DNA from: Physcomitrium patens
Lineage: Eukaryota; Streptophyta; Bryopsida; Funariales; Funariaceae
DNA: 64,000 nt
Direction of reading: 5' to 3'
Assembly: GCF_000002425.4 (NCBI RefSeq)
Contig: NC_037266.1
Location: 4,411,350 to 4,475,349, forward strand
Position numbers and translations under genes: made by a program. Of this stretch, positions 3,561-40,309 are shown piece by piece. The notes beneath the pieces are model-generated. The model saw only the letters and a list, made by a program, of their open reading frames with translations. It did not search any database and had not been told where the DNA came from. How positions within the stretch are numbered: the first letter of the stretch is position 1; each line of letters starts with the position of its first letter.

Positions 3561-4174
3561 TCTTTCATATCACATGATATGGCATTGGGTACCAAATCCT
3601 ATCAAATGTATGTAATTTACTTTAATTAACAATTTTTATCAATTGATAGTTTTTTTATTAGTTAATATTATTCATATCAATTAAGATTTTCATATTTAAG
3701 TGGAGAAAAATCTTTGTCTTGATATTCTTATCAAGTCAAGACTTGTGAATGATTTTGAAAGTAAAAAAATTTATTGTAAGGATTTGCTAAGCTATGATGT
3801 TTTAGCCATTTTAGTAAAGTTAGAGGATTTTTCTTATTTTTACACTTGTACTCTTGAATTTTTGTTTTGTAATGTAAGAGATAGCTTGAATTAATTTGAT
3901 GTAGATTTCTAATCTTTTATTTGACAAGAATCTCTTTTTTTCTTCAATTTATAATATAGTAAGTTAGAATGAAGTAAATAAATAAATAAATAAATAAATT
4001 ATAATTTAGGTATTATTTTTATTACTAAATTTGGAGCATTACTAGGTACCAAAATCAACTAAGCTATTAGTATGGTATTATATTAGAAGACATCATATTA
4101 GTAGAGTGGGACACTATAAACTAGATACTAGATCCAGTAATATTGCATTAAAATACATTCCAATATAAGAACGG
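3561..4174. other. A+T-rich interval with a (TAAA)n microsatellite
   Basis: No gene or element part could be recognised here. A short TAAA repeat occupies about 3,975-4,000. The stretch lies between the recognisable part of chromovirus copy A and the first LTR-like repeat. Confidence 0.4.
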
Positions 4175-5761
4175 TGTTGTGATGTAATACAACTAATAGG
4201 TAAAAAAGGTGAAGAAATTATTATATTATAAAAGATATTACTTCAAATATTATAGAAAATTATCTTAGAAAATAAACAATAGTCCAAAAGAAATAAAATT
4301 AAAGGTGTAAATGCTATCTTTTGCACAGCAAGCTTCTACTTACTTTGTAAGGCCATAAATAAGGCAAAAAAAGTAGATTAGATTAATAAAGGATATGAGC
4401 ATATATAAAAAGACGTCAAGAGTTGATTTTAATAAAAACTAATTCAAAAAGATAAAATTTGATATCCAAAGAGGACTGGTTATTAACCTAGGTTGAAATC
4501 AAATCCTAAGGCACAAGACTAGGCACCTACAATAACTTTGGATTTTTTTTGCAAATCAAAGATTCGAATTTGAACGCAAAATTAATAAGGTTTTTTTGAA
4601 CATTAATTTCAAGTGATTTATTTGTATAATGACTTAGTAACAGCCTTGTAAAGTCACAATTATTTTGAATGACTTTAGAATTTGTGAAAAAAAAAAAGAT
4701 ATTATATTTTGAAATTTTTTGTAAGATTGGTAGCAAATCTATAGTTCAAATTTTGATAACTCATGATAATAGTTGCCTAAATTATATGATATAAGTTTGA
4801 GCTTGATTAGGTGATTGAATTGAAGCTTATTGAACTTTTTAAAAATTGGACTTTGAGAGGCAGTTAGGATTTCTAAGATTTTCATCAATCTACTTGTTGG
4901 ATTAGAGTGAAATTTATGTGTGAGAGTAATAGACTTGATTTACTATACATATTTGAATTTTGAAAAAAATCAAATATTATGAGAAGGAAATATTGGCACT
5001 AAAACACCATCATCAAGATTGAAGAAGGAAGCTGGCCTACACCCAAGTGGATTTTGATATTTTTCTTCTATTTAGTAAGTTTGATTCTATTAAAATTTTG
5101 TATGCTTATTGCTATAAAAACTTAGTTTTTGAGGAGTATATAAAATTTTAAGCAAGAAAAATAATTTAATCAATAAATATTGAGGTTCTAAACTGTGCTA
5201 AGATTAGGTTGAGTTGGTTAGGTTTTGATAAGGATTTGGTTTAGGATTAGGATTAAATTAGGATTGAGGATTTTGTTAGAATTTGGTAAAGATTTATGAT
5301 TAGACTAAGGTTTAGGATTTGATTTAAGATTTAAAATTTAAGATTTGATTTAGGATTTAGGATTTACTTAGGATTTAGGATTTACCAAGGACTTTGGATT
5401 TAGAATTTGCTTAAGATTTAGGATTTGGCCTAGGATTTGATTGAAGTCCATTAGGATTTCAACTAGGATTAAATTAAGACTTAGTTGAGATTAATTTATG
5501 ATATACTTGTGATTATTCTAATATTTCTTTAGGATTTTGTAATAATTCTTTTAAGATTTATTGTAGATTTTTTATTGTTTCTTTTGTAATTTCTTAAAGG
5601 TTTTTTTTGAATTTAATTAAAGTTTATTTAGTATTTTTAAGGTTTAATTAGAGTTATTTAATGTGCTATTGAAATTAGAATTTTATTGTTGCAATTTTTA
5701 TTCTACCTTCCACAGTGAAGTATCCAATGTATTCTCAAGTAAGACTTCATCTAATCTAAAA
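4175..5761 (-). repeat. LTR-like repeat with telomere-like array, copy 1
   Basis: The reverse complement of this segment matches 6,122-7,909 along its length, including both ends and unique landmarks such as the segment around 4,500-4,560 against 7,556-7,610. It contains a degenerate TTTAGGAT array at about 5,221-5,470. The plus-strand left end (TGTTGTGATGTAAT) corresponds to the right end of copy 2. Likely a solo LTR or related terminal repeat, decayed and old. No clear flanking duplication was seen. Confidence 0.65.
5221..5470. repeat. Degenerate telomere-like (TTTAGGAT) array in copy 1
   Basis: Many TTAGGATTT-type words are spaced 7-14 bases apart. They resemble the plant telomere repeat TTTAGGG but are diverged and irregular. 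The array is internal to the LTR-like repeat, so it is not evidence of a chromosome end. Confidence 0.6.
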
Positions 5762-6121
5762 GCGGGATACTGGTTCAATGTATTAGAATATTTAAAGATA
5801 TATTATTGCATTAGTTGTAATGTGTAGTATACAAGTTGTAAGGTAAAGCTCCAAGATAGTAAAGATAGTATTGGAATTGTGAGGCAATGAAGATATTAGA
5901 GTCTAGGTTAGAGGCTTATTCTAGAACACAAGGGAAAAGTTTTGATTTATTTCATTTTGTGGAGTTTTTTGCAAGACTTTTTTTAATCAAAATAAGGCAT
6001 TGTATTATGGTTGTTGGTGTTAAGAGTGACATTGGAGTTATTTAGCAAGGCAATTCATACAAGATAGTATAGCATAAGGATTTGATATAAATTACAAAAA
6101 AATAACAAAAATTCATAACAA
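5762..6121. other. 360-base spacer between inverted repeat arms
   Basis: A unique-looking A+T-rich spacer lies between the two head-to-head LTR-like repeats. No reading frame or known motif could be supported. Confidence 0.4.
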
Positions 6122-7909
6122 TGTCATATTACGTGAAGTCTACCTTAAAAGTGCACCAAGCACTTCGTTGTGGAAGATAGAATAGAAATTATAATAAAAA
6201 AATCTTAATTCTAATAGAATATTAAATAAATTCTAATTAGATCTTAATAATACTAAACGAGCTTTAATCGAATTCAAAAGAAACCTTTAAGAAATTACAA
6301 TAGAAACCTTTAAGAAATTATAAAAGAAACAATAAGAAATCTTAAAGGAATTGAAAGAAAATCCACAATAAAACTTAAAAGAATCCTTAAGAAGCCCTAA
6401 AAATATTAGAATAATAAAAAAATATATCTTTAATAAATCTCAATTAAGTTCTAATTTAACCCTTATTAAAATTCTAATAGACTTCAATTAAATCCTAAAA
6501 AAATCCTAAATCCTAAATTAAACCATAAATCAAATTCTAGAAAAAATTTAAATTCTAAACCAAATCCTAAATCAAACCCTAGAAAAATCCTAAATCTTAA
6601 AAAAATCTCTAAATCAAATCTTAAAAAAATTCTAAATCCTAAACCAAGTTCTAAATCAAATCCTAAATAAGTTCTAAACTCTAAATCAAATCCTAGATCA
6701 AATCTTAGACTCTAAACCAAACTCTAAATCAAACACTAGAAAAATCCTAAATTCTAAAATAAATCCTAAATCAAACCCTAAAAAAATTCTAAAACCTAAA
6801 TCAAATCCTAAATCAAATCTTAAACCTTAAATCAAATCCTAAATCAAACCTTAATTCCTTTCAATTTAATCTTAACATACTTTAGAACCTCAATATCTAT
6901 CAATTGAACTATTTTTCTTACTTAAAAATTTACAAACCTTTCAACAACTAAGTTGGCATCAAGCATACAAAATTTGAAGATAATTTCACATCCAAATAGA
7001 AGAAAAATCCTAAAATTTGTTCGGATGTTGGCTGGCCTCCTACTCCAATCTGAATGTTAAATTTTCAGTGCCATTACCTCCTTATTAAACCATTTAATTG
7101 TCTTCAAATTTCACATATGTGTAGAAAATTAAGTCTTTTACTCTCAAATACAAATTTTACGTCAATCCAACTAGTAGATTACTAAAGATCTTAGAAATCC
7201 TAACTGCCTTTCAAAGTCCAATTTTTGAGACCTCAACCTTCTTGAAATTCAATAACCTTCAATTCAATCCTTTGATCAAGTTTAAACTTACAACATATAC
7301 TTCAAACAACTATTTACATAAGTATCCAAACTTTTATATTGTAGATCTATTATCAACTCATGAAATTTTCTAAAATATAATATCTTTTTTATTTTATAAA
7401 TTCTAGAGTCATTCAAAACAACTATGGCTATGCAAAGTTCTTTCAAAGTCATTATGTACTCAATTCCCTCAAAATCAATGCTTAAAGAAACCTTATCAAG
7501 TTTTCTTTCAAATCTCACTCTCCAATTTATCAAAGAACCTCTGACTTACCATTTGTGCTTGGTTTTGTGCCTTGGAATTTGATTTTGGCCTAAGTTGATA
7601 ACCGGTTCTCTTTCGATATCAAATTTTATCCTTTTGAGTTAATTTTTATTTTAACCAACTCCTAACTTCTTCCTTCATATGTTCATATTCTTTATTTTTC
7701 TAATCTATCTTGTTTTGCCTTATTTATGACTTTTCAAAGTAAGTAGAAGCTTACTTTATAAAAAAGTAGCATTTAAACCTTTAGTTCTACTTTCTTTTGG
7801 AGTATTGTCTATTTTCTAAGATAATTTGCTATAAAATTTGAAGTAAGATCTTTTATAATATAATAGATTCTTCATCCCTTTTACCTATTAGTCATATTAC
7901 ATCATGACA
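6122..7909 (+). repeat. LTR-like repeat (probable solo LTR), copy 2
   Basis: The segment starts TGTCAT and ends ATGACA, a perfect 6-base terminal inverted repeat of the TG...CA kind that LTRs show. It is flanked on both sides by the same 7 bases, ATAACAA (6,115-6,121 and 7,910-7,916), as expected of a target-site duplication. Gypsy and copia elements more often make 5 bases, so the 7 is slightly unusual. Inside is a CCTAAAT-like array at about 6,485-6,860. No primer-binding site or coding part follows, so a solo LTR is the simplest reading. Confidence 0.65.
6485..6860. repeat. Degenerate telomere-like (CCTAAAT) array in copy 2
   Basis: The stretch is dominated by words such as AAATCCTAAATC and CAAATCCTAAA. 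It is the same kind of array as at 5,221-5,470 in opposite orientation, and longer. Confidence 0.6.
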
Positions 7910-9146: not shown

Positions 9147-12100
9147 TTGAATGAGAAATACTTACTTGAGTTACGTGAAATGGAGTGTTATTGGGAGGCA
9201 CATATAGAGCTTATTTCAGCTCTTAAAGAGGATGTTATTTCAAGCTTCATGCTTATGGTGAAAGAAGAAGATCCAATCCAAAAAGAAGTTGATAAATCTT
9301 CAAAAGATCTGAAAGGAAAAATACTAGTTACTTCTTTAACTAATACTCCAACTACTTTGTTTTGTATGGCTCAAGCTGTAAAGATAGCATTATTTACAAT
9401 AAAAGAATGACAATCATTTGAACTTCTCCAAATGTTTAGTAAACACTTAAAAGATAAGCACAGAGGTTTTAGGTTTGATCAAATGCAATGCATTTAAGAC
9501 TTCTATTATGACAAAAAAAATACTCCATATATCATATATACTTATTTGGCTTGATTTGTAGTAGAGTCAAGAAGTGTATTTATTGAGAGCCAATTTTTTA
9601 AGATTTTTTTAATCTAAGATTAACAAGAGACTTTTGAATTTAGCTACATCAAGAATTATTTTCAACTATAATGGTAGGGCAATATTTGCACAAGCATTTA
9701 TTGAAGTTGAAAAATATGATAAGGTACTTTGTCAACATGATTCTAATCATATGATAGTTTAGATGACAAATATGTCTAAACTCCAAAAGATGGCAACTGC
9801 GACAAGTAGCTTAGCAAAAACTCAATTTGAAAAGACTATGTGTTGTTGGAGGTGTGGTGAATCTTATTACACTAAGAATGATTCCAATTTTTCTAAATAG
9901 AAAAAAACCAAATACATGAAGGAATCTAAATCAAAAGATGATATAGTTAAAATAAGAGATAAATCTAAAAAAAATAATTGAAGTATATTCATTGTAATAA
10001 GCTTGACTACAATGAAGATAATTGCTTCATATTACATCTCTACAAACGACCTACTTTGAATAAAAAAAAGGCCTCAGAAGCTAAAATTATTGAGTTAGAA
10101 AAGAGATTTAATAGTACAGCCTTATTAAATCAAGTTACTAGATCTTATATAACTTTTAGAAATAGAATAAGTTTTTTCTCCCCAAAAAATTATATGCTAA
10201 GGCATTGAAAGAAATAGTGGTTGGAGTTGCTACATGTGCTCAAACAATAGCTAAGAATATAGTACCTATAACAAATGAAGTACTAGAACCTTTGTCTGGC
10301 TATTCAAGCAATCATTGAAATCCTAATATTTATATACGACTATCTATATTATTTGGCCTTGAAAATATTAATTGTGTAATAAATCCTTTTATTTCAATTT
10401 CAATACAAGATGAAGATACCAATATTAAAAACATAGTACATACTTTGATTTATAAAGTATTGAATATATCTATATTTCTAGTATTGACTTCTTGGCTTCA
10501 AAATTTAAACCAATAGGGATCTTTTAATTGGTTGATAAAATATTAGAACGTAAAGTGCCTACATCATTATTAGATAGACTCAAGCAATAACAAAGCCTTT
10601 AACACAAGAGAATTTGGATAAGTTACAAGCCAAACTTGCAACTAAAGTTATTTCTATATTTGATGAAGATCATTTCAAGGCAATAAACATTATTCCTTCA
10701 AGTGGAGTACCATTGGCTATAGAAGTAGCATTTTTATTTGATATTATAGCTAAATTTAGTTAAAAATATCAAAATTTATGCCCAAAAATTATACAATTAA
10801 TTAATAATAATAATGTATTGGTTGTTAGCCATACTAGTAGAAATACTATTCATATTATATCTTTACACATTATGTTTAATTCTAAGGCTTAACTAATTAT
10901 GATTGATAAGTAGCTTGCTTAAAAATTATGACTTATGTCTATAAACTTAGAATCTTATTCATTCACCACTATTACTTCTATAATGGGCACAAAGCAAGGT
11001 ATTGGCTATACCAAACAATCTTTGCAATTAATATTTTATATTAGAATTACTCTATTTTATTTACACTTATCTCTAAAGTATGTAGTGACTAGTGCTACTA
11101 GTTGTGATATTTTAGTGGATCATTAAATATTTATCTATTTGATTTTGGCTTAAATAATCAGATTACAGAAGCATAGATTCGACCAAGATGTTCTATTCAT
11201 GATAGAAAAAAAGAATTTATTTCAGTTATATTTGTAATAATTACTATATTTATGTCAACAAAAACCTTATTTGATTATAATACATTAGCATTTGATTTGT
11301 CTTATAGAGTGGTTCTATTAGAAGAAATATTAGTATTTATGTTCCATTTTATAAGACCAAGTAATCCACCTTCTTTAGAAATTCATATAAAACAATAGAA
11401 GCATCTATCTCCTTCCTAGAAAATATGTGCAAAACTCTTTTGTGAATGTAAAGAGATTTTATATTCATTAGATATATTAAAGATTCTAAAATATTTTTTA
11501 TTATTTACCTTTGTTCAATCTATTCAATCCCATCCACCAAAAAAGAGTATTATCCTTTTGGAATTCTTTGCAAGTATTGATATAGGTTTGGTAGTGATAT
11601 TGGAGGCTAGACTTATTAATCAATGGTACATCTATGTGGATATTAAAACTACATTTAATCAAGCAGTCCAATTTCATCTCCAAAGATTGTTGGTTATATA
11701 TCTCAAATAATTAAAACCTCTTACCATTTGAGGTTGTTTTAGCCAACTTCCTTGATATATCACTTTTATTAATAATAAAGATTTAAAGAAATTAGGCCAC
11801 ATAAACTTATTGATTGCTAGATGGCATTGTCAAGGTCAAGGATTTAATTTATACAAATATTATAGTAATGAAGCTCCTTATTTGATTAAAAGTGAAGACG
11901 TTGAGAGCATAGGAGTAGTTTCTTCAATAGATTAGCAATTAAAGGCCATATTGGCATATAATGTACTCAATTGGTGAAGAAAGAGACCAAAAAGTTTGAT
12001 AATTGGCCATTGAAATTAAGGCCACATCTTATTAATGTCAAAATACAAAAGATATAAGCTTTTATTTCCTCGTATTGCTATTATTTTGCCATAAATCTTT

Positions 12101-12230
12101 AAAATCTTGAAGATTATAAAGGCAAATATATTCATATCCAATTGCAAGATGGTCACCTAATCTTCCAATGATCTTATCAGCTTAGTATCTTAAAAAAGGT
12201 GGTGTCCAAGTATGAGTATAAATTTCCACC
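9147..12230 (+). mobile_element. Gypsy fossil D, 5' block: gag, protease, methyltransferase-like
   Basis: The gag part starts near 9,147. Two zinc-knuckle-like Cys/His stretches lie at about 9,840-9,890 (CCWRCGE) and 9,985-10,050 (IHCNKL). A protease-like part lies near 10,850-11,130. Two stretches at 11,531-11,933 resemble a C5 cytosine methyltransferase (listed separately). The matching pol block in the same orientation begins at 15,656, with other repeat material in between. The element is broken in many places and old. Confidence 0.65.
11531..11933 (+). other. C5 cytosine DNA methyltransferase-like domain in gypsy fossil D
   Basis: Within 11,531-11,707 the text IILLEFFASIDIGL followed by YIYVD fits motif I, the S-adenosylmethionine-binding region of C5 methyltransferases (consensus like LELFAGIGTG...VD). 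Within 11,755-11,933 the text LLIARWHCQGQGF fits motif IV, around the catalytic PCQ consensus. Order and spacing agree with the family, and both lie between protease-like and RT-like sequence of one element. LTR retrotransposons with such a domain are known to me from some dinoflagellates and charophyte algae. The call rests on motif reading alone. The domain is fossil and not expected to act. Confidence 0.6.
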
Positions 12231-12560
12231 CATCAACCCAAATTACAAGATGGCCTCAATTAAGAGTTTCTTATAATGGGTGGTGTGAAGTGGAAGTAAC
12301 AAACAATAAGAACTAAAGAAGAATAATACAAAACAAGCAAAACAGGTACAATCAAGCAATTGTACACTATAAAACAAGTCATAGTTTGTTCACTGGATTC
12401 TCACCCAATAAAAAGTAAAAAATAAAAGTAAAAATTATATTTTTTGAAAGGTAATTTTTATCTTTTCAATGACATAAAAAACATGTAAATCCGAATTACT
12501 ACTAGTAAGTTATGAAGGATTGAAAATAACAAGTAACAAATGGAAAGTGAAAATATTTTA
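12231..12560. other. A+T-rich repeat-derived stretch
   Basis: Low-complexity A-rich text with no recognisable gene or element part. It lies at the border between fossil D and the inserted material. Confidence 0.3.
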
Positions 12561-12564
12561 CCTC

Positions 12565-12780
12565 AAAATAACTTGTTAATAGATCAAGGGTTCGAACCTC
12601 ACCAAGGCTCACATGTAGTGTATATGGGTTTCCTGAAGAGGCCTTGAGGCCTTAGTCTTATCTTCCTACCTACATCCAAGGTGCTACAACCCATATGGGA
12701 CTTATGCACCTCTCTTCTTACAAGGACTATACTAGCTGCTGGTCCTCCTATTTTCTACTAGTAGAATTAATATTTTTGCA
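12565..12780 (+). repeat. Possible tRNA-derived short element (B-box-like)
   Basis: The text GGGTTCGAACCTC at about 12,588-12,600 matches the RNA polymerase III B-box/T-arm consensus GGTTCGANNCC. A convincing A box upstream was not found. The following 170 bases are less A+T rich than the surroundings. It could be a truncated SINE or a chance T-arm match. Confidence 0.25.
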
Positions 12781-12930
12781 TTTTTGACTTCACCATGGTG
12801 TTCAAAAATACCCAATTAGCCTAGAAACATTGTGTGGCCTTCAAAACCTTGCTCCATTTCTTCATAATGGCTCCCCAAGTGGTAAAACTCAATTTTACCA
12901 AGGTCTTGAAAATTACCCTAAACATTCATA

Positions 12931-13195
12931 GAAAATTCTAAATAAATTCTAAATAAATTCTAAAAATTACTATAATATTTCTATAATTCTAAGATCCATT
13001 TAAAGATATAATTTCCTATATTGATAATTTTTTATAGTGATAAAAATCAATTTGAATCTACTAAAAATTCTAAATAATTTCTAAATAAATTCTAAAAATT
13101 CCTATAATATTTCTATAATGCTAATAGTAATTTAAAGATATAATTCCCTATATTATTGATTTTTATAGTAATGGAATCAACTTAAATCTACTATA
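12931..13195. repeat. Tandem duplication, period about 131 bases
   Basis: The segment from about 12,931 is repeated from about 13,063. Both copies contain the run AAATTCTAAATAA, then AATATTTCTATAAT, then TTTAAAGATATAATT. The copies differ at many positions. Confidence 0.6.
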
Positions 13196-13914
13196 AATTC
13201 TACTTTCTATATAAATAATTAAAAAGACATGAGGTTCTTTTTCATGTTTCTTTTAACTACTAACTAACATTTATAGTTTTTGTATAAGTAATACATATAG
13301 ATATAAGATCAATATAAATATTGATTTTAGGAACTACTCCTTACTCCTCAATAGTAAGTAAAAATACTAAACCAACTAAAATAATTACCTCCAAAACTTA
13401 CTAAGATTCCATTTCTTCTCCACTAATACTATTCTTCTTTCTTTAACGTCTTCTAAGCACATCTTTACCTAATAATTGTAATTTTGGCACTCTACATGCA
13501 TTCTTTTGTCCTAAGACAATTATTGAGTCAATCTAATGATTCACACATGGCGACCATTTGAGACAACTTGTAATAGAGAAGAACCTAGAACTGACTTTTC
13601 AAAAGGCTATTGAATAAAAAGAGGGTTTGTCTATAGAAGGTTTCAATAGCTATCCAAGTCAAGAATGAGTGAGTTGCTACAAGTCTATAGGAACTAAAAT
13701 AGTTTTCTTTCTATAGAGTTATATAAGAAAATAGAAGAAAATTTAATTTAATCTTAAAAATTAATGATTCTAGAACAAGATGGACAAGACTAAGGCTAAA
13801 AAGGTGGTATCTCTACTCCCCTCTTTTGACATGAGAGGATTTTGGTATAAAGCCGTAAAGGCCTACATATCCATAGAAGGTACAATGTTGGTCTTTTCCT
13901 GCACTAATAGTAGG

Positions 13915-14005
13915 TCATTGGGATAGCCCATTTTTTCCAACCGGATTTGAACCCGGGATACTTACTTGACAATCTCTCATATGACCAACACTTCTACACC
14001 CTTTG
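13915..14005 (-). repeat. tRNA-like / SINE head candidate
   Basis: On the minus strand the text CCCGGGTTCAAATCCGG (about 13,940-13,957) carries a perfect B-box core GGTTCAAATCC able to pair as a T-arm. TGTTGGTCATATGAGAG lies about 25-45 bases before it as a loose A-box candidate. A SINE head or decayed tRNA gene is possible. No body or tail was identified. Confidence 0.35.
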
Positions 14006-14545
14006 GATGTTTACTAAGACACATTCTTCCATATATTAATGATTTCATTTATTTTTTATTTTTTATTTTTTATTCTTTTTTGTGATGGAACTATGTTGAA
14101 AGAAGGACAAGTTGATTGAATATAATAAAAACTTATCTTGACATCTAATGTTTAGCTTTCTATTTTTTTCTAATTTTGATGATTTTTTATTTAAGGGATT
14201 CAAAATGACAATTATAAAGATGAAATCTTTGATTATGGATGTAATGAAATCACACTTGATATTTCTTGCATCGATTGCTAGTAGTTCTAATAGGAAAGTC
14301 TTTTCCATTAAGAGTTTACAACCAAACTAAATTGTTTGAAAAGACTTCTTTTACTAAATAAGGACCCAATCACTTTGCATCAAATTTTCTTGGGAAATCT
14401 AATTACGTAGCATCTAGTAAGAGTATTAGCATGCCAGGCTTAAGGATTCTATCTTGTGTCATTTGTCAAAGGCAATTTTTCTTCTTCTTTGAATTACCTC
14501 TATATGTTGAGTACTTTGCCTTTTGGCCTCATTTATATCTTTTAA

Positions 14546-15615
14546 TCATTCTAGCCTATCAATTAAAGATTTCTTAGTTGACAATCTTGCTGTCAAGGCA
14601 ATTTGAAGTGAAGAAATTTCAAATTCAATTGATAAAATGGCTTCTATGCCATAAACTAAGGAAAATGGGGTTGCTTGGATTGTCTTTTTAAATTTCATTC
14701 TATAAGCCCACAAGGGTGCAGGGAGCTTTGTATCCCAATCTCTTTTAGATATTGTAACACTTTTTCTAAGGATATTGAGCAAGGTTTGATTTACCCTTTC
14801 TGTATGCCCATTTGTTTCAGGGTGATAAGGAGTAGTTTTTCTATGGTCAATTTTTTCAATTAAATCTTCCAAATCTGAACTTTGAATGCAATCAAAGTTC
14901 ATCCCAAAGACATCTTCAATTTTAATGTCATCTACCAAGGTTGCTAAATCTACTTCCACTTTATTGTCTTGCTAAGTAGCAAAACTATCTATGAAGTTAA
15001 CATTCATTACTTCATCTGCACTTGAAGTAGGGTGTTCCGCTAACCATTGGATGAATTCTCCATCATCTTCATAATTGTATAATCTTGGGCCCATGCAACT
15101 TAATGGGGTAGTTTGGACTACACTAGAATGAACTATGTCCTTTGCTATCGAATCAGTAAATTCAACCTTCTTTTTTAATTCTTTCTGTGGTTGTGGATTC
15201 AAAATTCATCTTCTAAAGAATAAGATGAGATTTTGGTTGAAAACAATCCTTAGATTTGAATAAGAATTTTAGTCAAGTTTTCTAGTGGTCCATAGATGAT
15301 ATGGGGCTTTTTACCTCCCCAATCAATTTTTGCATTAGTTGCCCTTAACCAGGGTCTGCCTAGAAGTAATAGGTACGAATTCTTACTTGGATGCATACGA
15401 ATAACATGAAAAGTAAAGGAATACTCCTTACCACCGATTATCACCCTACATCCAATAATTTGGCCTAAAAAGATGTCTTGGCTTTGATTAGCCATGTTAA
15501 TTATATATAGAGAAGGGCCAGTGATATTAAGACCGAACTTCTCTATTGTTCGTACATGCATGATATTTAATCCACTACTTCCATCCACAATAGTATAAAG
15601 TATGATTTTATCCAC
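14546..15615 (-). mobile_element. Minus-strand gypsy fossil E (protease and integrase parts)
   Basis: On the minus strand, 15,615-15,250 reads as a retropepsin-like protease with the DGSSGLNIM active-site region and the later LLLGRPWLR signature. 14,959-14,546 reads as the C-terminal half of a Ty3/gypsy integrase core (HRKTTPYHPETNGHTERVN). It is an incomplete and broken copy, but less decayed than its neighbours, so probably younger than fossil D, between whose two blocks it lies. Confidence 0.75.
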
Positions 15616-15655
15616 TATAAAGACTTCTAACTCGATTGCCCTTACTTCTTGTATT

Positions 15656-18270
15656 TAATTCAACTATCTATTTAGATGTAAGATTAAATTTGATCAATAT
15701 CCAATGCCAATGCTAGAAAAATTATTTAATACAATAGGATTCTTTCAAGTATTCAACACTTTGGATTTAAGATTTGGTCATCATAAATTATCATTATTTG
15801 TTAAAAATTAGATAAAGATAGAATTTTAAGAGATTAATCAAGATGATAAAGATTAATTCTATTATTAAAAGTTTCTTCCATTTGGTCTTAAAAATATACT
15901 AGCTCAATCTCAAGAAGTGATGGATCAAGTTTTATTTAGCTTGTTGTTTGCTTGATGCTATATTATTAATATTATCATTTTTAGTAGCATCCTATAAGAT
16001 CATGTAAGGTATTTATAAATAGTATTTGAAAGATTATGGCAATAGGAATTGTGCTTACATCATAAAAAATATAAATTCTTCGATAAATAATTATCATACT
16101 TAAATTATATGATTATCCCAAGAAGTCTTAGCATACAACAAGCAAAGGTAGATGCCTTGCAAAAATCCTAATACCAAGTGATGTTTTATGACTTTAGACT
16201 TTTTTAGAATTGATAAATTATTATTAGAGGTTTGATAAAAACTTAAGCAATATTACAAAATCGTTGACAATTTTTACACATAAATATCAACCATGGACTT
16301 AGAATCGTGAAAAATTATATATATTCAATATATTATAGCAAAAGTTGGGTTCAATTCTAATACTTCAACGTTTGGATTCTAATAGACTTTCTAAATTATT
16401 TATAAATTGGAGTGCAATAAGATTAGAAGGAGTCTTGACAAAAAATAATGATATAAAATAAGAATATATTATTGCATTTGTTTCTAAAAGTAATAACAAT
16501 GTGGAGTCAAATCACTCATCTTATAAAAGAGAAGCTTTTGCAATAGTTTAGACCATTGCTAATTTCTAACCTTACTTGTATGATCAATCTTTTATATTAG
16601 TAATTGACTATCAATCTTTGAAGTGGCTTATAGAATCAAATAAGTATATTGGCAAGTTTACAAGATAGATTTTATTGCTTAAAAATATGACTCTGAGGTT
16701 GTGCATTAGGCAGGCATTACCAATTTGAATGTCAATAGACTTTTTTGTAATCCATGCCCTTTATAAGAAGACTTAATCAAAACTTAGTGGTATAGAAATT
16801 ATAATTGAAAGATAATCTCTTGATGGCATACAACCACATGTTTGACTTTAATGTCAAATTCTACAATCATAGTTCTTGACCAAAATTTAAAAGAAGAATT
16901 GGACAAGAATCAAGTAATTAAAAATGTATAAAAAAATCTTATACAAGCTTCAACAAGGAACATTTCTTTCACTTATCTTGTATATGAAAAGAGATAGAAT
17001 TAGTCACTAAATAATAAGATTTTTTTGAAAGAAAAATTTATTATTTTGTAAGTAGCATAATAGTACTAAGCGCATAGTTCCAAGGCCAAATCAAAGAACC
17101 TCTTTAATATGACAAGTACATGAAGAATTTAGATATTTTAGGGTGAAGTGTGTGATTGAATTAGATGAAGCTTTAATACCTTATTACCTCAATTGAAGCT
17201 ATTATTTATTATAGATTTATATTATTATTGATCTTTAGACTTTATTGAACTACTTGTTATTACCTCATGGAGAGCTAAATACATGTTGATGATAGTAGAG
17301 TATTTTAACAAGTAAATTGAACTCGTGGCTTTATTACAAAATTCTTTAAAATTGTTAATTATGAAATTTTTAGTTAAGTATTGGCATATTTTCGAACACC
17401 TATTGAAGTCTCAATGGATCAAGAAAGAGAGTTTTTTAAAAGATTTTAGGCTTTATGTACTAAAGCTTTGATAGATTATTGTGTTATGTCTAGAAATCAT
17501 CTTGAAGCAAATAGCCTAATTGAGTGGGTTGTTCACATTGTCAAATGTAATTTACAAAAGTATGAATTACTTCATGGCAATTATCATAATTGAAATTTGA
17601 TGTTGCTATAGATTGCAATGGATTATTACTTCAATAAACAAACAACTTTGGCACTTTATAGCCCTTATCAATTGTTGTATGGATAGGAGCCAATTCTACC
17701 TAACTCAGTATATAAAAAACTAGTTCTAGTTGTTGACATAGACGATCTTGATATTTGAGCTCAATGTCTACATAATCAAGCAAAGTTCTTTAAACAAGCC
17801 ATATATATGGCTATAGAAAATTTATTTATTATTCAATAATATGATATTTTATAATATGCTAATATTTATAATAGAACTTATTGATTTTAGTTGCAAAGAT
17901 TCTCTAAAAGAGATTATGTGTATTTACAATATGAGGTGTCTACAACACTTGATATTAAAATAAGATCCACAATTCTACTTCTAAAGAATGTGTTGTCTAA
18001 TAGTATTTTATTGTTAGAAGGCAAAAATGGACAAGAATGTCAAGAGCATTTAAAGAATTGTATTCCTTGTCATCTTCCTACTAATGACTCTATACATTTT
18101 AAATTAGAATTGTATCAATTGGCCTTTTTTATTTTGTATGCAGTAAGAAGAAAGAAGCTGCTATCAGACTTTTGTATGATCAATGCCAATACATGTGGCA
18201 TATGGCATGTTTGATACTACCTTTTTTGATTCTTCCATGAAGAGATTGGATTTTTCTTCATTGTAAGAAG
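15656..18270 (+). mobile_element. Gypsy fossil D, 3' block: RT, RNase H, integrase, PHD-like end
   Basis: Reverse-transcriptase-like text (YPMP, FNTLDLRFG, LPFGLKN) lies at about 15,690-15,930 and RNase H-like text at about 16,420-16,720. Integrase-like text lies at about 17,100-17,760, including DQEREF and SRNHLEAN regions. A Cys/His-rich end lies near 18,140-18,265. It has the same orientation as 9,147-12,230 and is taken as the rest of that element, interrupted by later repeats. It is broken in many places and old. Confidence 0.7.
18140..18265 (+). other. PHD-finger-like Cys/His stretch at the pol end of fossil D
   Basis: In one frame DQCQYMWHMACL (18,178-18,213) shows the C-x-x-x-x-W-H-x3-C spacing of the second half of a PHD finger. 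Another Cys pair precedes it near 18,135-18,145. The downstream text again approaches the LP..W.C end of a PHD finger. PHD-like modules at gypsy pol ends would act as chromatin readers. Fossil and uncertain. Confidence 0.4.
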
Positions 18271-18439
18271 TCTCTTAGCCATGCTTCATCTCATGATAAG
18301 GACTGAAGATTTCCTCTATTATGTGTGTCACATACTTTGATAGACTAACTATTACAATACTAGTTTAAAAGAGTATTATTCGGCAATAATATAATTATGG
18401 TGTTCATCTTCAATAATATATATTTTGTAGTCCTAATTA

Positions 18440-22012: not shown

Positions 22013-23255
22013 TTATATTCCCCTTTTAAATTTTGAAAAGGATTTTTCAAAATCTTGATACAAATTGAGTTCTCTTATCTGATATAATATCTTTAGACGA
22101 TCTGTAATAATGACAAATGTTATTAAGAAAAAATTTAGCCGTTTCTTCATCTTTGATAGATTTTACACATGATGCAAAATATGAAATATTTATAAAATAA
22201 TCTACTACTACAAATATAGAATCATAAAAACCTAAAATTCAAAAGATCCATGATAAAATCAATAGAAATGAAAGACCATAGTTATTCTAGAATAGGTAAT
22301 GGATGAAGAAGTCCATAAGATCGATAGCAATGAATTTTAGATCTTGAACAAATATTACATGATTGTATAAAGTTTTTAACTACTTTCTTTATTTGAAGCC
22401 ACCAAAAATATTTTAATATTAGCTTCAAAGTCTTATTGTATCTAAAATATTCAGTTGCTAAAAAGTCATCATGAGTTTGAAGAACACATAATTGTACCTT
22501 ATCTTCTATAATATATAATTATTCTTTAAAGTAGAATAGATTATCCTTCAACACAAACTTAGAAATATCATGAGATTTAAAAGAGTTATTCTTGATATCA
22601 TCGACAAGAGAATCAAAAGAAATACTTGATTGAATTTGTTTGACAAAGATTGAAATAACAATCAATATTGATTTTATTATTCAAAGGTGAAAATGTTCTA
22701 GCTTCAAGAGAATTGTTCTTTATTGATCAAAAGATGCATCATCTTCTTTTCATATAAGATAAAAATATCTAAAAAAAACATCCAATAAACCTTATTGTTT
22801 TTTGAATCGATAAATAATCTTAAAATCAAATCTTGATAAAGACATACTCTAAGAAGTATAGCGACAATTCAAATCATGTGTCGATATGAAGTACTCAAGA
22901 TTCTTATTATTTATATATATGGTGACTAGATTCAAAGCGCCTTTTAAATAATGACACCATTCTTCAAATAAATCCACAATTACAATGAGTTCTTTGTTAT
23001 GGATCTCATAATTAATCTTAACTATTGAAAATTTTCTAGAATAGAAAGCTATCGAATGGAATTTATTACATGTTCTTATTTTTAATAATATTACATCTAA
23101 GACAAAGTTTGATGCATCTCTTTCTATAAAAAAAAAATACATTAGATAAGTCAATACTATATAAGATTGGTGCAAAAGTAAACTCCTTTTTTAAAGTATC
23201 AAATGATGCTTTTGCTTCTTTACTCTACTCAAGTTTGTCTTTAGAAATCAAACAT

Positions 23256-24665
23256 TGTCATATTACATGAAGTGTTATTTGAAAGTACATCAAGCATCTG
23301 GCTATGAAAGATAGAATGGAAATTGCAATAACAAAATCTTAATTTTAATTGAATATTAAATAAAATCTAATTAAACCTTAAAAATGTTAAAGAATTTTTA
23401 ATCAAATTCAAAAGAAACCTTAAAGAAATTACAAAAGAAATAATAAGAAATCTTAAAAGAATTGAAAGAATTGAAAGGCACAATCAATCTTAAAAAAATC
23501 TTTAAGAAGTCCTAAAAATATTAAAATAATCACAATATATCTTAAATAAATCTCAACCAAATTTTAATTTAATCCTAGTTGAATCACCAATAGACTTCAA
23601 TCAAACTCTAGACAAATCCTAAAAAAATCCTAAATTCTAAACTAAATCCTAGACAAATCTTAAATCCTAAATTTAATCCTAATCAAATCCTAAACCTTAA
23701 ACCAAATCCTAAATCAAATCATAATTAAATCCTAAAAAAACTTCAAATCCTAAATCAAATCTTAGCCAAACCTTAAATTCTAAATCAAACTCTAATCAAA
23801 TCTCAAATCCTAAATCAAACCCTAACTAAATCCTAAATCCTAAATCAATCCTAATCAAATCTCAAACTCTAAATCAAATCCTAATCAGACCTTAAATCCT
23901 AAATCAAATCTTAGATAAGTCCTAAACTCTAAATCAAATCCGAAATAAACCTTAAATCCTAAATCTTAAATTAAATCCTAATCAAATCCTAAATCAAACC
24001 CTGACCAAATCCTAAACCATAAATCAAATCTTAACCAAATTCTAAACTTTACATCAAATACTAACCAAATTCTAAATCCTAAATTAAATCCTAATCAAAT
24101 CTTAAATCCTAAATCAAATCCTAATCAAATTCTAAATCCTAAATCAAATCCTAAAAAAATCTTAAATCCTAAATCAAATCCTAAACAAATCTTAAATATT
24201 AAACTAAATCCTAGAAGAACTCTAAATCTGAAATCCAATCCTAATCAAATCCTAAACCTTAAATCAAATCCTAGACAAATCTTAAATCTTAAAGCAAATT
24301 TTAATCAAACCTTAGACAAATTCTAAATCGTAAATTAAATCCTAAATTCTAAAATAAACCCTAATCAAATTCTAAACCCTAAATCAAGACCTAAGGTAGT
24401 TCAAAACCTCAATATCTTTTAATTAAGCTATTGATCTTTTTTAAAATTTTAGACACCTCTCAATCTCTTAGTTGTAAATAAATACAAAAAAATTGAAGAA
24501 TATTGCACTTACCAAATGGAAGAAAAATCTTAAAATTTGCTTGGATATTGGCTAGCTTCTTTTTTCAACCTTGATACTAAATTTCTAGTACTAATGCCTT
24601 TCTTTTGTAACATTCAATTTATCTCAAAATTTTCACATATGTAAAAAAAAAAAAACAAAACAAAA

Positions 24666-29899: not shown

Positions 29900-30950
29900 A
29901 ACACTTATATATACAAATATGGGACCGTACGACTCTCCACACCGCAAACCCTAAAATGGAGCACTGCCAGTGACGGAATCGGAGGGACGCGTGATTGAGC
30001 GCGCGATGCTTCCTCGTCGTCGTCACGAATTCCCACACGTGAGCTGCCCGTGAGGAGGAACTGTCCAGCCACCGATGCGGAGCTGCGCTGCGAGAGTATT
30101 TGTTACTATTCCCGTCGCTAATCTCGTATTCCTGCAACTGTGGGGGAGGGACCTTTGCAGCTGGAGGTGTGTGCCTCGTGCGCCATGTTCAGCCATAGGG
30201 GCCATGGATCCGCCATTTCTAGGGGGGGGTGTGCACATGATGGCCTGCTTCAGGGAGTTTCCCGGGCCCCGCTTTCGGAGCCCCCTTCGCTCCCTTCCAC
30301 TTGCGATATCATGGATCTGAATTCTTTGTATAAGTACAGCAGGGCTGGGTGATTGTGAAATAGCGTTGCGACTTCGTTTGTTTCCCACTCTTGGAGCACT
30401 GGAATCACGTCGTGTATCTGAGACCGAGATTGGCAGAGGCGATCGCCAGACGTTTGTCAATCTCGACTGCTCTCTCTGCTCGTGGTTTCAGTTCGCGAGG
30501 TGACATCGTAGAGCAAATTGTGCGGTCTCGGAGCAGGTAAGAGATGCTTAGCGGTTATAGCTTGCCTCTTTGATCGATGTGCAGTACGCTTGCAAGTGTG
30601 GGCTCGGTACGGTATGCTTTCTGGCTAGGATTAGCTACTGAATCTGCAGCATTTGGAAAATGATTACTTCGTGTATTGTTGGACCACCATTAGTAGCCAG
30701 CAGAATGCCAACCTTGGGTTTAGCTCCAATTAGATTCCAACTACGAGATGGTCTCGAGCATGAGTTCTATTTGTAGCTTATCCTCTCAGGTTCGTCACAT
30801 TGTACGTTTCAATTGAGATTAGTACAAATAAGTAGTTAAAAGTCGATAAGAATCTACCGACAAATGCTACGATGAATCAAAGCTTTATGATGCTATACGA
30901 TCAGCTGCGACCACTAGATAGTTTTGATGAACTGTTTCGCAAACTTGCAG
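29900..30950 (+). promoter_or_regulatory. GMD promoter, 5' UTR exon and 5' UTR intron
   Basis: GC-rich upstream DNA begins near 29,930. A TATA-like TGTATAAGTA lies at about 30,328-30,337. A leader exon probably ends at 30,535 in a strong donor (CAG/GTAAGA), and an acceptor TTGCAG lies at 30,945-30,950, ten bases before the ATG. The leader intron would be about 415 bases. The transcription start is not determined. Confidence 0.5.
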
Positions 30951-30960
30951 ATTGTTTGCA

Positions 30961-32445
30961 ATGTCTCAAGAGGCGGCGGCTTCGAAGAGGGCGCTCATCA
31001 CTGGTATCACCGGCCAAGATGGCTCGTACTTGACCGAATTCTTGTTGAAGAAGGGTTATGAAGTGCATGGGATCATCAGAAGATCCTCGAACTTCAACAC
31101 TCAGCGTTTGGAGCACATCTACATCGATCCGCACCAGTCCAGCGCTCGCATGAAACTGCACTACGGAGATCTGTCAGACGCGTCGTCATTGCGGAAATGG
31201 GTTGACTCGATCCGCCCGGATGAGGTTTACAATCTGGGGGCGCAGTCTCATGTGGGAGTGTCGTTTGAGAATCCGGATTATACCGCCGATGTGGTAGGCA
31301 CCGGAACGCTAAGGCTGTTGGAAGCTATTCGAATTCACATCCAAGCCACCGGAAGGCTGGTAAGTACTCTTGAAACCATTTCCGAAAGTCATCCTGCCTG
31401 ATCATTGATCATCACCGGAATCTTTAGTAATGCGCGTAGCCTAGCATGTGGCCTACGCCGGGGTGTTTTTTCTTTTTTAATTTTTGAGGCTTGCCTTCGT
31501 GAAGTGGCGCACTTTCTCACTTAAATACCGTCGTAATGGTTGTAAATGTTCAGGTGAAGTACTACCAAGCTGGATCTTCTGAGATGTACGGTGCCACTCC
31601 TCCGCCTCAAGACGAGACCACCGTGTTCCATCCTCGCAGCCCTTACGCCGTCGCCAAGGTGGCAGGGCATTTCTACACCGTGAACTACCGAGAGGCATAC
31701 GGGATGTTTGCATGCAACGGCATCCTGTTCAACCACGAGTCTCCCCGCCGAGGAGAGAACTTCGTGACGAGGAAGATCACTAGAGCCATTGGTCGCATCA
31801 AGGTGGGCCTGCAGAAGAAGCTGTATCTAGGTAACTTGAAGGCGTCTCGTGATTGGGGATTTGCCGGAGACTACGTGGAGGGAATGTGGATGATGTTACA
31901 GCAGGAGAAGCCCGACGACTACGTGCTCGCGACGGAGGATTCCCACACTGTGGAGGAGTTTCTGGAAGAGGCATTCAGCTATGTTGGTCTGAACTGGAAG
32001 GACCATGTCGAGATTGATCCCAGGTGAGCGATATCGAACAACGCTTCAGGGTCACCTGTTTCCAAATAGCTTTTAGGTTTTGTAAACAGATATTGCGACC
32101 TGGGTAAGTACCGAAGTGAACTAGGCTAGGTAATTAGCACAAAAAACAAGTGCCGGGAGTATCTAACCAGGTGGGGTTACATATATTGAAATTGAGATTG
32201 GTGAGTGCGAAAGAGATATATCTTAACCAGCGATCGTCGACTGTGGTGCTTACAGATATTTCCGTCCTTCGGAGGTGGACAATCTGCGAGGCAGTGCGCA
32301 GAAAGCGAAGGAGGTGCTGGGATGGCAGCCTAAGGTGCAGTTCAAGCAGCTGGTGGCGATGATGGTGGATGGTGATTTGGAGAAGGCGAAGCGAGAGAAG
32401 GTGCTTGTGGATGCTGGCTTCATTGACTCGCACCAGCAGCCCTGA
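30961..32445 (+). CDS. GMD: GDP-mannose 4,6-dehydratase
   Basis: This cytosolic enzyme converts GDP-D-mannose to GDP-4-keto-6-deoxy-D-mannose, the first step to GDP-L-fucose for cell-wall and glycan synthesis. Coding exons are 30,961-31,359, 31,554-32,023 and 32,256-32,445, all with GT/AG introns, giving 352 residues, the usual family length. It is an extended short-chain dehydrogenase. The NAD(P)-binding GITGQDG is at residues 15-21, the GSSEMYG active-site segment (Glu143) follows, and the Tyr164/Lys168 pair lies in YAVAK. The [19 protein letters not shown] block is conserved. The C-terminus [17 protein letters not shown] matches plant GMDs such as Arabidopsis MUR1. The first ATG after the leader intron is in frame. 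The gene looks intact, and its base composition is very unlike the flanking transposon DNA. Confidence 0.96.
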
Positions 32446-33815
32446 ATTTTGGGCACCGAATGAATAGTGTTAATAATTATATGAAACGAATGGATATAAT
32501 ATGACAGGCCTTGCAATATATGGTTAATATATTGATACATAGTGATATGTCAACCCGAGAGTACTTCTTCAATTAGGTTATAGCCTTAGCTTTGCCATGT
32601 AAGGCTTACAATATATTCTTCGCTGCCGCAGTGCTTAGCACACACCAAGTACTAGTTCCGAGCAATTTTAGTGGGTTGTTTATTCAGCAGAATGCACTGA
32701 CACCACTCATCTAGAATATAAGCCCGCATTCGGGTGCAAATCAATGCTATTCTCTGATGAGGACGATTTTGCCAACCTGTGCACCCTCCTTCGAAATGAA
32801 TATTCAATTCTTAACATGTTGATGGAACTTCACTATTATATTCTTTAATTAGAGTGACCAATTATAGAGGATCGAAGCTGCCTTCTATGTAATACATCTA
32901 AACTTTTTTATTGGTACTGTTGCACAGAAATGCCGAAGCATTCGGAATCTTTCTTTTTATATCATATAAAAGCAAGATACTACGGCTGACTCATGCTTTT
33001 ATTGTGGGTATATAAAGTTGCACCTCCATTTATATTCCAAGGAGGCTAGATTGCTCAATTTATCGGGAAATTTCTCAGTTAATTACTTCATAAATTATAC
33101 TGATTAATTCTCTTATGCCATCATTGTAGGTTTCTGCCCAGGGCAATCACTGGCCATCACTGCGCATATCCTGTGCATCTCCAAGAAATATTTTACAAGG
33201 TTATCGCCCTCCACAAATAGCTACTCCAATGATAGAGATTATACAATTATGTCGATAAGCTTCAGTAGAGAGTTTTCACATGAGAATTTCCGATGTGGCA
33301 ATAAGCGTAGTAAGACGAGCAATAATTTTGAAGTTTCCCGAAGTTTATCAGTTTTCCTATTCATTGCAAGAGCTGGAAATTGAAAGAATAAAGCATCGAA
33401 GTTTCAAAATTGCAAGATAATTTATTTGAGATAGTTTATTAAGATAATAATCAAGATGAATTTGACGATGTTCCCGAAAGAAAATATCCATAGTGAATAC
33501 TACATTGATGAGATCCATTTTTGCACTCCCTCTAGACCTCGTGAAGTCGCGCAATAGGTTATGGAAATACATATGCACAATATGTTCACATCCTTGAGAC
33601 AGGAGAGAAAATAGTACATTCACATGTACACCGTGACAGAAACACAAGTATATCTAACACATAACACCTCATGTACACTCTAATTACGCTCTATCGTTTA
33701 TATGTTGCCCTGCCTGGAGGTGAAGGTGTCTAAGATCCGATAAGCTCCCTTCGATTAGCAACTTCGGTGGTTAAGGATTCGTTACAGAATAATTGAGACA
33801 TCATGACCTCGAAAT
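32446..33815. other. Convergent intergenic region between GMD and the coiled-coil gene
   Basis: It holds the 3' UTR of GMD on the left and that of the minus-strand gene on the right. No conserved reading frame or repeat was found. Composition is intermediate between genes and transposon DNA. Confidence 0.5.
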
Positions 33816-36192
33816 TTATGCTTCAGTTGTGGTGGTTGTGGTGGTATTCACATCCTGCACGAACTTCTTGTCATCACTCTTGATGTCCTGCTCAGTCTCT
33901 TTCACCTCCTCCTGCAACTGAGCTGCTTTCTCAGCCTTCTTGACAGCTTCATCCTCACGGCCCTGGATGGCTTCCTTGTGCTCCTCCACTTGCACGCCAA
34001 CAGACTGGAGCTGGCTCTCAAGCTCTGCGTTCTTTTTGTTCAAGGCCTCAACTTCCTGCTCAAGCTCCTTGATTCTGTCTTGCAAAGCCTTCACCTTCTC
34101 GTCGACACCCTCGGCCTTTTGCACAGCCTCATCACGCTCCAAACGCAAGTTCTTCAGCTTAGTGCTCAAATCTGTGAGGCGGTCGGCGTGATTTTTTAAG
34201 TCATCATCCTTTGCAGCGAGAGCAGCCTCCTTCTCCTGCAGGTTGGCAGCAGACTCCTCACCAGCAGCAGCCTTAGATTTAGTGGCGTCCAATTCGGTAG
34301 CCAAACTCTTCTCAGCGTTGGCTTTGTCTTGCGCCTTTGCAGCCTCGTCCTCTAGGCTCGATTCAACATTGTCAATCTTGTCGTCTTTCTCAGCAGCCTC
34401 AGCTGCCTTCTCCTCTGCGATGGCTTCCTTCTCCTCAGCTTTAGAGAATGCTCCCATCATCTTACTCTTTAAGCCACCAATGCTGTCTATCAATCCTCCC
34501 TTCTCCTGCTTCAACTCCTTCGCCTCATTGCTTGCAGTTTCCTTATTCTTCTCTTCAGTTGCCACCTCAGATTCCAACTCCTTCTTGTCAGATTCAACCT
34601 CACCAACTTCCGCCTCAGTTTGACCAATGATTTTTTCAAGCTCAGCGATGCGCTCAGCCAACACACGTCCATGACCAGCATTGGCATCGTACTTCTTCTT
34701 CAAATTCTCAATCTCAGCCCTGAGAGTGCCAGTCTTTTCCTTCTCATTGGCAAGTGCATCAGCCAACATGTTGGAGCGTTCAACAGACTTCCTCAGCTCC
34801 TCCTTGTACTCTTCAACGGAGACTATGGACTTCTCCTTTTCCTCACCAACCTCAGTCAGCTTTGACTCCGCACTTTGAGCCTTCGATTCGAGGTCTCCGG
34901 CAACTGAGTCGAGCTCGGAGGCCTTCTCCTCAGCTGGAATTGCGCGGGACTTGAATTCATCAGCCTGGTTGCACGATGAGAAATATTTTTCAGAACCTCG
35001 CCAGAAGTGCGTAGATCAATAGTAAAAAAGAGATATAATCAAAGTCTTCTTCCAATTTACCTATTAATTCAAATCAGAATCGGAAAAGGAAAGATAAAAA
35101 TTATTAATTCTTTAAGGGACTGCATCAGAAACATCGCTCTAAATCAAGACTTCACCTTATTAGCAAGATCGCCAACTTTGGCTTCTTTCCCTTGAAGAGC
35201 GGATTCCTTATCAGCCAGCTTCTGACTCATGTCCTCAATCTTCATCTCCCTGTCTTGTAAGCCAGTGTGCACACCCTCCAAATCCTTCTCATATTTCACG
35301 TTCGTTTGCTCCAATTCTCCAAGCTTGGCTTGGTATTCTTTCATCTTCTTCTCAGCTTCGGTATACTTCTCATCTGCCTTCTTCAATTGAAGCTCTAGCT
35401 CAGCGGCCTTGGCACCGGCACCTTGAACCTCTCCTTCCAGATCCTTGACGCGAGCTTCCAGCTCAGATATCCTAGACTTCGCTTCGCGTGCTACTTTGTT
35501 GGACTTCTCGGTTTCATGGTTAGCCATGGCAAGCGCTTCTTCGCAGTCCTTGAGAGACTTCTTAAGTTTCTCATTTTCACCTTCTAGGTATGCCATTTTC
35601 TGAAACCACAGTTACCACGATTCAGTGCCAGCTGAGATCCATCAATATCCGACTCAGACTTCATAGCGCTACTCCCGCCCCGTAAGTTTCCCATCAATTG
35701 CGTATTTTTCCCGACCACAATAACGAATGTGGAGAATTGAGCACGTTTAATTTTACAACAGCCTCATGTCAATTCGAGTGTCACCACCAACAATGCATAC
35801 ATCGAATCAGCCAAGGCAATTGAGCATCACATCCACATGCAATCGGATTAACTCTTTAAACATAAACCATAACATAAATCACAATCCACTCAATTACGTT
35901 TCAAAATAAAATAAATAAATAAATTCTCATCTTCCGTATCGACAACCTCCTGTCACATAAACACTAAAACCTCATCCAAATTCAAACCGGAATTTCTAAA
36001 TGACACGCCAAAACCACTATATACCTCTTGGGCCTTCTTCCCGACATCCGATGGCACAACGACCTGCGCAGTGACAACCGAGCTGTTCTCAGGTCCTCCC
36101 ATCTTGTCCTGAGTCTCTTTCGCCTGCGATTCCAACTGCTGCTTGGCGTAGTTCACAGCCTCGGCGTTCTGTTGACTCTCCATGCTCGACAT
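33816..36192 (-). CDS. Long coiled-coil protein of unknown function
   Basis: Three minus-strand exons, 36,192-36,025, 35,599-35,156 and 34,964-33,816, join in phase 0 with GT/AG introns. They give 586 residues from the first ATG at 36,192, or 583 from the ATG at 36,183. Almost the whole protein after residue 55 is Lys/Glu/Ala-rich heptad text with few prolines, typical of an extended coiled coil. The last residues are a short Thr tract ending in EA. No transmembrane segment or signal peptide is visible, and the N-terminal 50 residues are Gln/Val rich. By resemblance it could be annotated as tropomyosin-, myosin-tail- or peroxisomal/mitochondrial division factor-like, but coiled coils mislead homology and the membrane anchor of the division factors is absent. 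A CT-repeat leader lies at about 36,232-36,262. Confidence 0.88.
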
Positions 36193-36231
36193 AGCTGAGT
36201 ATTCCGATCTCAATCTCCAATTCTCCCGAAC

Positions 36232-36580
36232 CGAAACACTCTCTCTCACTCACTCACTCAGTCGATCTGTTGAGGGAAGCAAAATCCCTAGGAAAGCTCC
36301 TCGACTAGTATCGGGAATCTGGACTCGCAGTGTTTGTAATCTCGCAGCGCCGGATCAAGTGAAGTCTGATTTGATTACAGCCATACTCCACTGCATAGTC
36401 ATATACTCGGGCATCTTTCCTGGCAAGGCGACGTGGCGGGGTCCGGCGTGAGGCGCCAGCTCAGACCGATCCTTGCGGTGCCACGTAGATCTAAAGCAGC
36501 CTCGGGAGTGGCACTCCCTGGGGTCGCCATGTGGCGAGCCCCACGCACATGTTGCTCCCATTGATCAAAGTTTTATAAAT
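36232..36580 (-). promoter_or_regulatory. Leader and core promoter of the coiled-coil gene
   Basis: On the minus strand a TTTATAAAAC TATA-like box lies at about 36,565-36,574, followed by GC-rich DNA and a GAGTGAGTGAGTGAGAGAGAG leader tract (about 36,235-36,258) before the ATG. The spacing would give a leader of about 340 bases. Confidence 0.4.

Positions 36581-40263: not shown

Positions 40264-40309
<46 letters not shown>

Follow-up and report, generated by a model that had tools for sequence, protein, structure and literature searches.

Remains of a DNMT3-like methyltransferase domain in a fossil Ty3/gypsy element of Physcomitrium patens

Plants silence retrotransposons mainly through cytosine methylation, and a DNMT3-type methyltransferase that is carried by a retrotransposon and kept under constraint therefore raises the question of who marks a new insert, and for whose benefit. 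The question is posed here by a decayed Ty3/gypsy element, fossil D, located in a window of 64,000 nucleotides from Physcomitrium patens (NC_037266.1, positions 4,411,350 to 4,475,349), to which all coordinates below refer unless another source is named. The original prediction, made from the letters of this window alone, placed motifs I and IV of a C5 methyltransferase between the protease and the reverse transcriptase (RT) of the element. D is probably a dead two-ORF Ty3/gypsy copy whose first open reading frame (ORF1) carried a DNMT3-type methyltransferase, with which the living element likely methylated its own new DNA copies.

The methyltransferase domain and its relatives

The sequences LEFFASIDIGL (motif I, 11558-11590), YVD (11633-11641) and IARWHCQG (motif IV, 11813-11836) of fossil D lie in one shared frame. 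A hidden Markov model (HMM) of the family, built from 47 relatives and excluding D itself, detected this region in the six-frame translation of the window at 78.9 bits (E 2.1e-24). The runner-up match had an E-value of 0.36, and the top score among 10 shuffled controls (6-base blocks) was 0.6 bits. An HMM derived from distant relatives alone (P0039-P0049, n = 11) also detects the domain (E 6.8e-11). Motif IV reads WHCQG in D and WPCQG in the relatives, such that the catalytic Cys is retained and the Pro is replaced by His. Both predicted motifs are thus borne out by the family HMM and by intact relatives. The predicted extent, two stretches spanning 11531-11933, requires revision: the methyltransferase occupies approximately 11537-11836 in a single frame, and 11867-11932 belongs to the tail of ORF1.

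The route to these relatives was the integrase part of D, which is better preserved than the methyltransferase. Residues 660-830 of the frame 15641-18340 retrieved the proteins P0001 (61% identity, E 1.3e-55) and P0002 (53%, E 3.2e-45), both of which match RT, RNase H, integrase and a PHD finger, and whose alignment led to one locus in the genome collection, a 9285-base contig designated L001. Although filed as an uncultured cyanobacterium, L001 reads as a whole gypsy element, and the label most likely reflects contamination. Its ORF1 comprises gag, zinc knuckles, protease and a methyltransferase domain that is complete and that PF00145 recognizes at 45.9 bits (cut-off 22). ORF2 lies in the same frame beyond a TAG-CAA-TCA stop and specifies RT, RNase H and integrase, followed by a PHD finger. 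The Ty3/gypsy order of gag, protease, RT, RNase H and integrase is present in L001 by Pfam and in D by colinearity, with the protease profile below cut-off (Asp_protease_2 in L001, 20.5 bits against 24.3). The ends of the L001 contig overlap by 127 bases. A search of viral contigs with the pol part found no relatives; with the methyltransferase it returned eight contigs, 27-59% identical over parts of the query, which were regarded as phage methyltransferases and left uncounted. A plasmid search gave 14 records, all below 60% identity and mostly integrase-like.

Proteins matching the L001 methyltransferase at E ≤0.001 were taken as the family; at least 48 were found among 7993 candidates scored, and all family counts given here are among the matches listed. 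The domain is joined to retroelement parts in 41 of the 48. Gag and protease precede it within one protein in 28 (arrangement A; blastp), and in a further 11 (arrangement B) it is joined to pol, beside or between RNase H and integrase, lying between the two in P0039, P0042 and P0049. P0035 has the methyltransferase followed by RT, P0048 has a zinc knuckle, five proteins comprise the methyltransferase only, and two (P0052 and P0053, excluded from the family profile and motif counts) lack any retroelement part. In the arrangement B proteins, pol is 33-57% identical to L001 ORF2, and a PHD finger is found in L001 and in five of these 11 (P0039, P0043, P0047, P0050 and P0051). The Pfam scan of relatives covered eight chosen from the 48, with P0020 dropped. 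In P0039, a Tudor-type domain (PF21743, E 6e-8, residues 1191-1239) lies past the PHD finger and is a possible second chromatin reader on pol. Six of the 48 have plant-named sources, all of them liverworts (five Marchantia polymorpha and one Calypogeia fissa); relatives with a whole methyltransferase domain occur in liverworts and in environmental DNA. P0016 is labelled a DNA cytosine methyltransferase of an Obscuribacterales bacterium; it looks like eukaryotic contamination, in which case the name is misleading.

By sequence and by its predicted fold, which is closest to DNMT3, the domain is classed as DNMT3-like, nearer to DNMT3 than to other classes. The catalytic Cys of motif IV is present in 46 of 47 rows, the exception being P0051, which begins downstream of it. 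The Glu of the motif VI ENV is kept in 44 of 47 rows (44 of the 45 covering it) and the Asn in 45, while the Arg pair of motif VIII is found in 44 and 43 of the 47, respectively. The family differs from DNMT3 at motif IV, with WPCQ in place of SPCN. Pairwise comparison of 10 ORF1 proteins from the L001 group (45 pairs) gives average identities of 84% for the protease, 82% for the methyltransferase, 69% for gag, and 59-64% for the zinc-knuckle, spacer and tail regions.

A tree of the methyltransferase (47 rows; P0050, P0051 and P0053 dropped) places D in a starred set with 13 L001-group rows (98/95). Its nearest row is P0015 (56% identity over 99 columns), although the precise neighbour is unsure owing to the long branch and odd composition of D; P0035, P0045 and P0048 are also long branches. 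The six liverwort rows form one side of a starred branch, and the arrangement B rows included in the tree, nine in all, form one side of another branch (93/92).

Layout of the fossil and its surroundings

The anatomy of D was established by tblastn of the L001 proteins against the window. The fossil is colinear with L001 through gag, zinc knuckles, protease, methyltransferase, RT, RNase H, integrase and PHD finger, and the predicted position of the methyltransferase between the protease and RT of a Ty3/gypsy element is accordingly upheld by the same layout in L001. Its parts are as follows.

3714-3950, plus strand: possible piece of the 5' long terminal repeat (LTR) of D, uncertain, separated by other sequence (63% over 245 columns, E 1e-9, to noncoding L001 7229-7449)
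8440-8507, plus strand: possible leader ahead of gag, weak (69%, E 5e-4, to L001 8326-8392)
8777-9611, plus strand: gag remains with shifted frames (38-41% identity to L001 ORF1 and its N-terminus)
9592-10172, plus strand: end of gag and two zinc-knuckle-like stretches (34-39% identity to L001 ORF1)
10578-11117, plus strand: protease region (39% identity to L001 ORF1 residues 423-602)
11117-11536, plus strand: end of protease and spacer (first part of a 242-column match, 36% identity)
11537-11836, plus strand: first half of the DNMT3-type methyltransferase, motifs I to IV (HMM E 2.1e-24; 48% identity to P0015 over 124 residues, 11468-11839)
11837-11866, plus strand: deletion scar, about 0.86 kb lost with methyltransferase motifs VI-X and part of the tail (spacing of D against L001)
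11867-11932, plus strand: C-terminal tail of ORF1 (13 of 22 residues as in the end of P0015 and 10 of 22 as in that of P0017; weak alone, E 0.001 and 0.058)
11933-11941, plus strand: ORF1 stop, TAG followed by CAATTA, a leaky-stop context (same position as TAGCAATCA in L001 3489-3497)
11974-12201, plus strand: start of ORF2, N-terminus of RT (53% identity to L001 ORF2 residues 14-89, E 1e-19)
12202-15679, no strand assigned: foreign sequence interrupting RT, with minus-strand gypsy pieces (gap in the L001 match; minus-strand integrase piece)
15680-16165, plus strand: RT (56% identity to L001; RVT_1 E 4e-7, slightly over cut-off)
16141-17148, plus strand: end of RT, RNase H and integrase linker (40% identity to L001)
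17145-18097, plus strand: integrase (two blocks, 58% and 51% identity to L001)
18109-18297, plus strand: remains of the C-terminal PHD finger (49% identity over 63 residues, E 5e-13)

Spacer and protease together match L001 by tblastn across 10178-11117. As had been predicted, the copy is broken: RT is interrupted and half of the methyltransferase is gone. The PCQG codons and the ORF1 stop are 96 bases apart in D versus 960 in L001, from which a deletion of about 0.86 kb follows, removing motifs VI-X together with part of the ORF1 tail. Identity between D and L001 at codon positions 1, 2 and 3 is 0.57, 0.77 and 0.43 in the methyltransferase, 0.68, 0.78 and 0.45 in RT, and 0.75, 0.63 and 0.49 in the PHD finger. 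These values would fit past constraint on D, with the A+T shift of D also depressing position 3. The search of the window for LTRs gave no pair assignable to D. A same-strand match of 6110-6385 to 23245-23500 (75%) does flank the element, but probably represents another repeat, as it has an inverted twin at 5523-5755 and no match in L001. The Rfam search and the search of phage DNA gave no match.

The stop of ORF1 is TAGCAATCA (TAG-CAA-TCA) at L001 3489-3497, beyond which ORF2 continues in the frame of ORF1, and TAGCAATTA (TAG-CAA-TTA) at D 11933-11941, in the frame of the methyltransferase; the ORF2 match begins 38 bases past the stop in D versus 39 in L001, one base off. Both fit TAG-CAR-YYA, the tobamovirus-type leaky stop, and thus the methyltransferase likely lay on the Gag side of a readthrough signal. 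CARYYA after the stop drives readthrough in tobacco mosaic virus, according to the available text of PMC4132726 and PMC2754532, the latter of which mentions readthrough candidates among rice gypsy elements. L001 also has a hairpin 8 bases beyond the first base of the stop (z -2.7), and TAGCARYYA occurs in it twice against 0.36 expected. The stop is likely leaky in view of the position of the motif, common to both copies, and not of its rarity.

The sequence that interrupts the RT of D holds pieces of a second gypsy element on the minus strand (14546-15654): an integrase-like piece at 14633-14851 (42% to L001, E 2e-10; rve_3 below cut-off) and a protease-like ORF at 15250-15654, judged by eye. 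Other minus-strand gypsy remains lie at 22849-23190 (RT_RNaseH, E 4e-16, at 22852-23190), and a distant RT match at 1156-1922, also on the minus strand. The repeat at 5523-5755, 6110-6385 and 23245-23500, in inverted and direct copies of 75-76% identity, may be a fold-back element accompanied by a second, half copy; its copies adjoin long degenerate arrays resembling CCTAAA/TTTAGG (5227-5383, 6486-6854 and 23613-24394). Host genes encode a GDP-mannose 4,6-dehydratase (30931-32027, plus strand; first ORF, E 1.6e-50), a coiled-coil protein (33816-35611, minus strand; tropomyosin profile below cut-off) and a protein with a WRC domain (42946-43746, minus strand; E 2.9e-10); this domain is plant-specific, and its presence points to a plant host. 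Composition splits sharply between the repeat part (1-30000; GC 0.24-0.31, observed/expected CpG 0.15-0.25) and the gene part (30000-44000; GC 0.44, CpG 0.79).

What the enzyme may have done

In the living element, some ribosomes would have read through the ORF1 stop, so that the methyltransferase would have reached Gag-like levels and been packaged with the particle, there to methylate complementary DNA (cDNA) before integration. The cDNA is favoured as substrate because an enzyme on the Gag-side polyprotein would be inside the particle, where cDNA forms. The PHD finger may have read a histone tail and steered integration, and the element would then have combined the writing of chromatin marks with their reading. 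As to benefit, the insert would likely have arrived pre-marked like host chromatin, or shielded from attack as foreign DNA. A broader proposal is offered tentatively, at somewhat less than even odds: a single PHD-bearing Gypsy lineage with a DNMT3 writer may predate the split between liverworts and the host of this window, with the writer in either of two slots (after the protease, dosed with Gag by a leaky UAG, or between RNase H and integrase), and its particle may methylate its own cDNA before landing and read host histones on arrival.

Several points weigh against self-methylation of new copies by the element. Enzyme activity, readthrough and packaging are each inferred from sequence. With the sequence of D itself, PF00145 gave no match, a PDB search with the first methyltransferase stretch only gave none, and a protein search scored 420 candidates with none at E ≤10. 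The stop context was compared at the DNA level in two copies, L001 and D; the RNA fold near the stop of D is unremarkable (z -0.84), and TAGCARYYA is not rarer than chance in the window (4 found, 5.89 expected). The two parts of D have observed/expected CpG ratios of 0.16 and 0.17, within the range of the other repeats (0.15-0.25), whereas the ratio at 30-44 kb is 0.79. This is the pattern expected for methylated, decayed repeats, and since low CpG is common to the whole repeat half of the window, it gives no sign of self-methylation by D. The sequence of D alone would not support a methyltransferase; the relatives are required. The original prediction was to be abandoned if no methyltransferase profile matched, which holds for Pfam on the decayed copy and is overturned by the family profile.

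The enzyme may instead have acted on host chromatin, travelling with the integration complex and methylating the landing site along with the new insert, thereby curbing its own spread and sparing the host. The arrangement B relatives, with the domain close to integrase on pol, and the PHD finger at the end of pol in some of them would suit such a role, and self-restraint is named as one possibility in the available text of PMC5890265. However, the methyltransferase of L001 and D lies on the Gag side of the stop, apart from integrase, which makes this account unlikely, though worth keeping in view. It is more doubtful still that the domain did not methylate DNA and served the particle by binding nucleic acid or methylating RNA. 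The WPCQ of motif IV departs from DNMT3, and the SymbioLINE enzyme, as far as the text of PMC5890265 extends, gave no DNA methylation in yeast; nevertheless, the near-universal catalytic Cys, the ENV Glu and the DNMT3-like fold make a loss of activity improbable. Finally, coincidental similarity, or the insertion of unrelated sequence, can be dismissed as the origin of the methyltransferase-like stretch: D is broken, has foreign sequence within RT and keeps half a domain with no Pfam match, but its profile score far exceeds the shuffles, its order and junctions are those of L001, and the linkage of gag-protease to the domain in the 28 arrangement A homologs already refutes the notion.

Self-methylation of new copies therefore remains the preferred account. 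Whole-domain relatives in Marchantia, a tractable land plant, together with intact L001 make the question testable, and a Gag-side methyltransferase ahead of a likely leaky stop predicts a dosage and packaging that can be checked.

Comparison with known systems

The catalytic domain of animal DNMT3A/DNMT3B shares approximately 24% identity with the family methyltransferase and has SPCN where the family has WPCQ; unlike the animal enzymes, the latter is part of a retroelement polyprotein. To our knowledge, published cases of such elements are one alga and dinoflagellates. The precedent invoked by the original prediction, in dinoflagellates and charophyte algae, is indeed in print, and PMC5890265, in the text available, describes SymbioDIRS-Dnmt3 and SymbioLINE-Dnmt of Symbiodinium, DIRS and LINE retrotransposons that captured a cytosine methyltransferase independently. 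For the SymbioDIRS enzyme, PMC5890265 reports de novo methylation of CG and proposes that cDNA is methylated. A retrotransposon-borne cytosine methyltransferase is the trait that these elements hold in common with L001 and D, but as DIRS and LINE elements they use other integration machinery than Gypsy. The accessible part of PMC12344493 repeats the occurrence of DNMT3 in streptophyte and dinoflagellate retrotransposons. No report of bryophyte cases was found in the literature searched, in which PMC9516144, PMC6453930, PMC10538959 and PMC8616336 were available in part and subscription papers mostly fell outside the search; accordingly, novelty in print is not claimed for elements of the bryophyte type.

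The closest known system is KnitGypsy-Dnmt3 of Klebsormidium nitens, a Gypsy retrotransposon whose coding region includes a DNMT3-related domain that, as in the L001/D family, keeps the key residues (PMC5890265, text available). No protein named for K. nitens is among the matches listed, and the main text of PMC5890265, so far as available, makes no mention of PHD. Its text and legend place the KnitGypsy-Dnmt3 domain in the Pol polyprotein ORF, with a DIRS-like arrangement of repeats. A DNMT3 domain inside the Pol ORF is found in 11 of the 48 relatives and not in L001. Judged against that description, L001 and D are unlike KnitGypsy-Dnmt3 in that the methyltransferase closes the gag-protease ORF, just ahead of a stop that is likely leaky, and in that a PHD finger terminates the other ORF.
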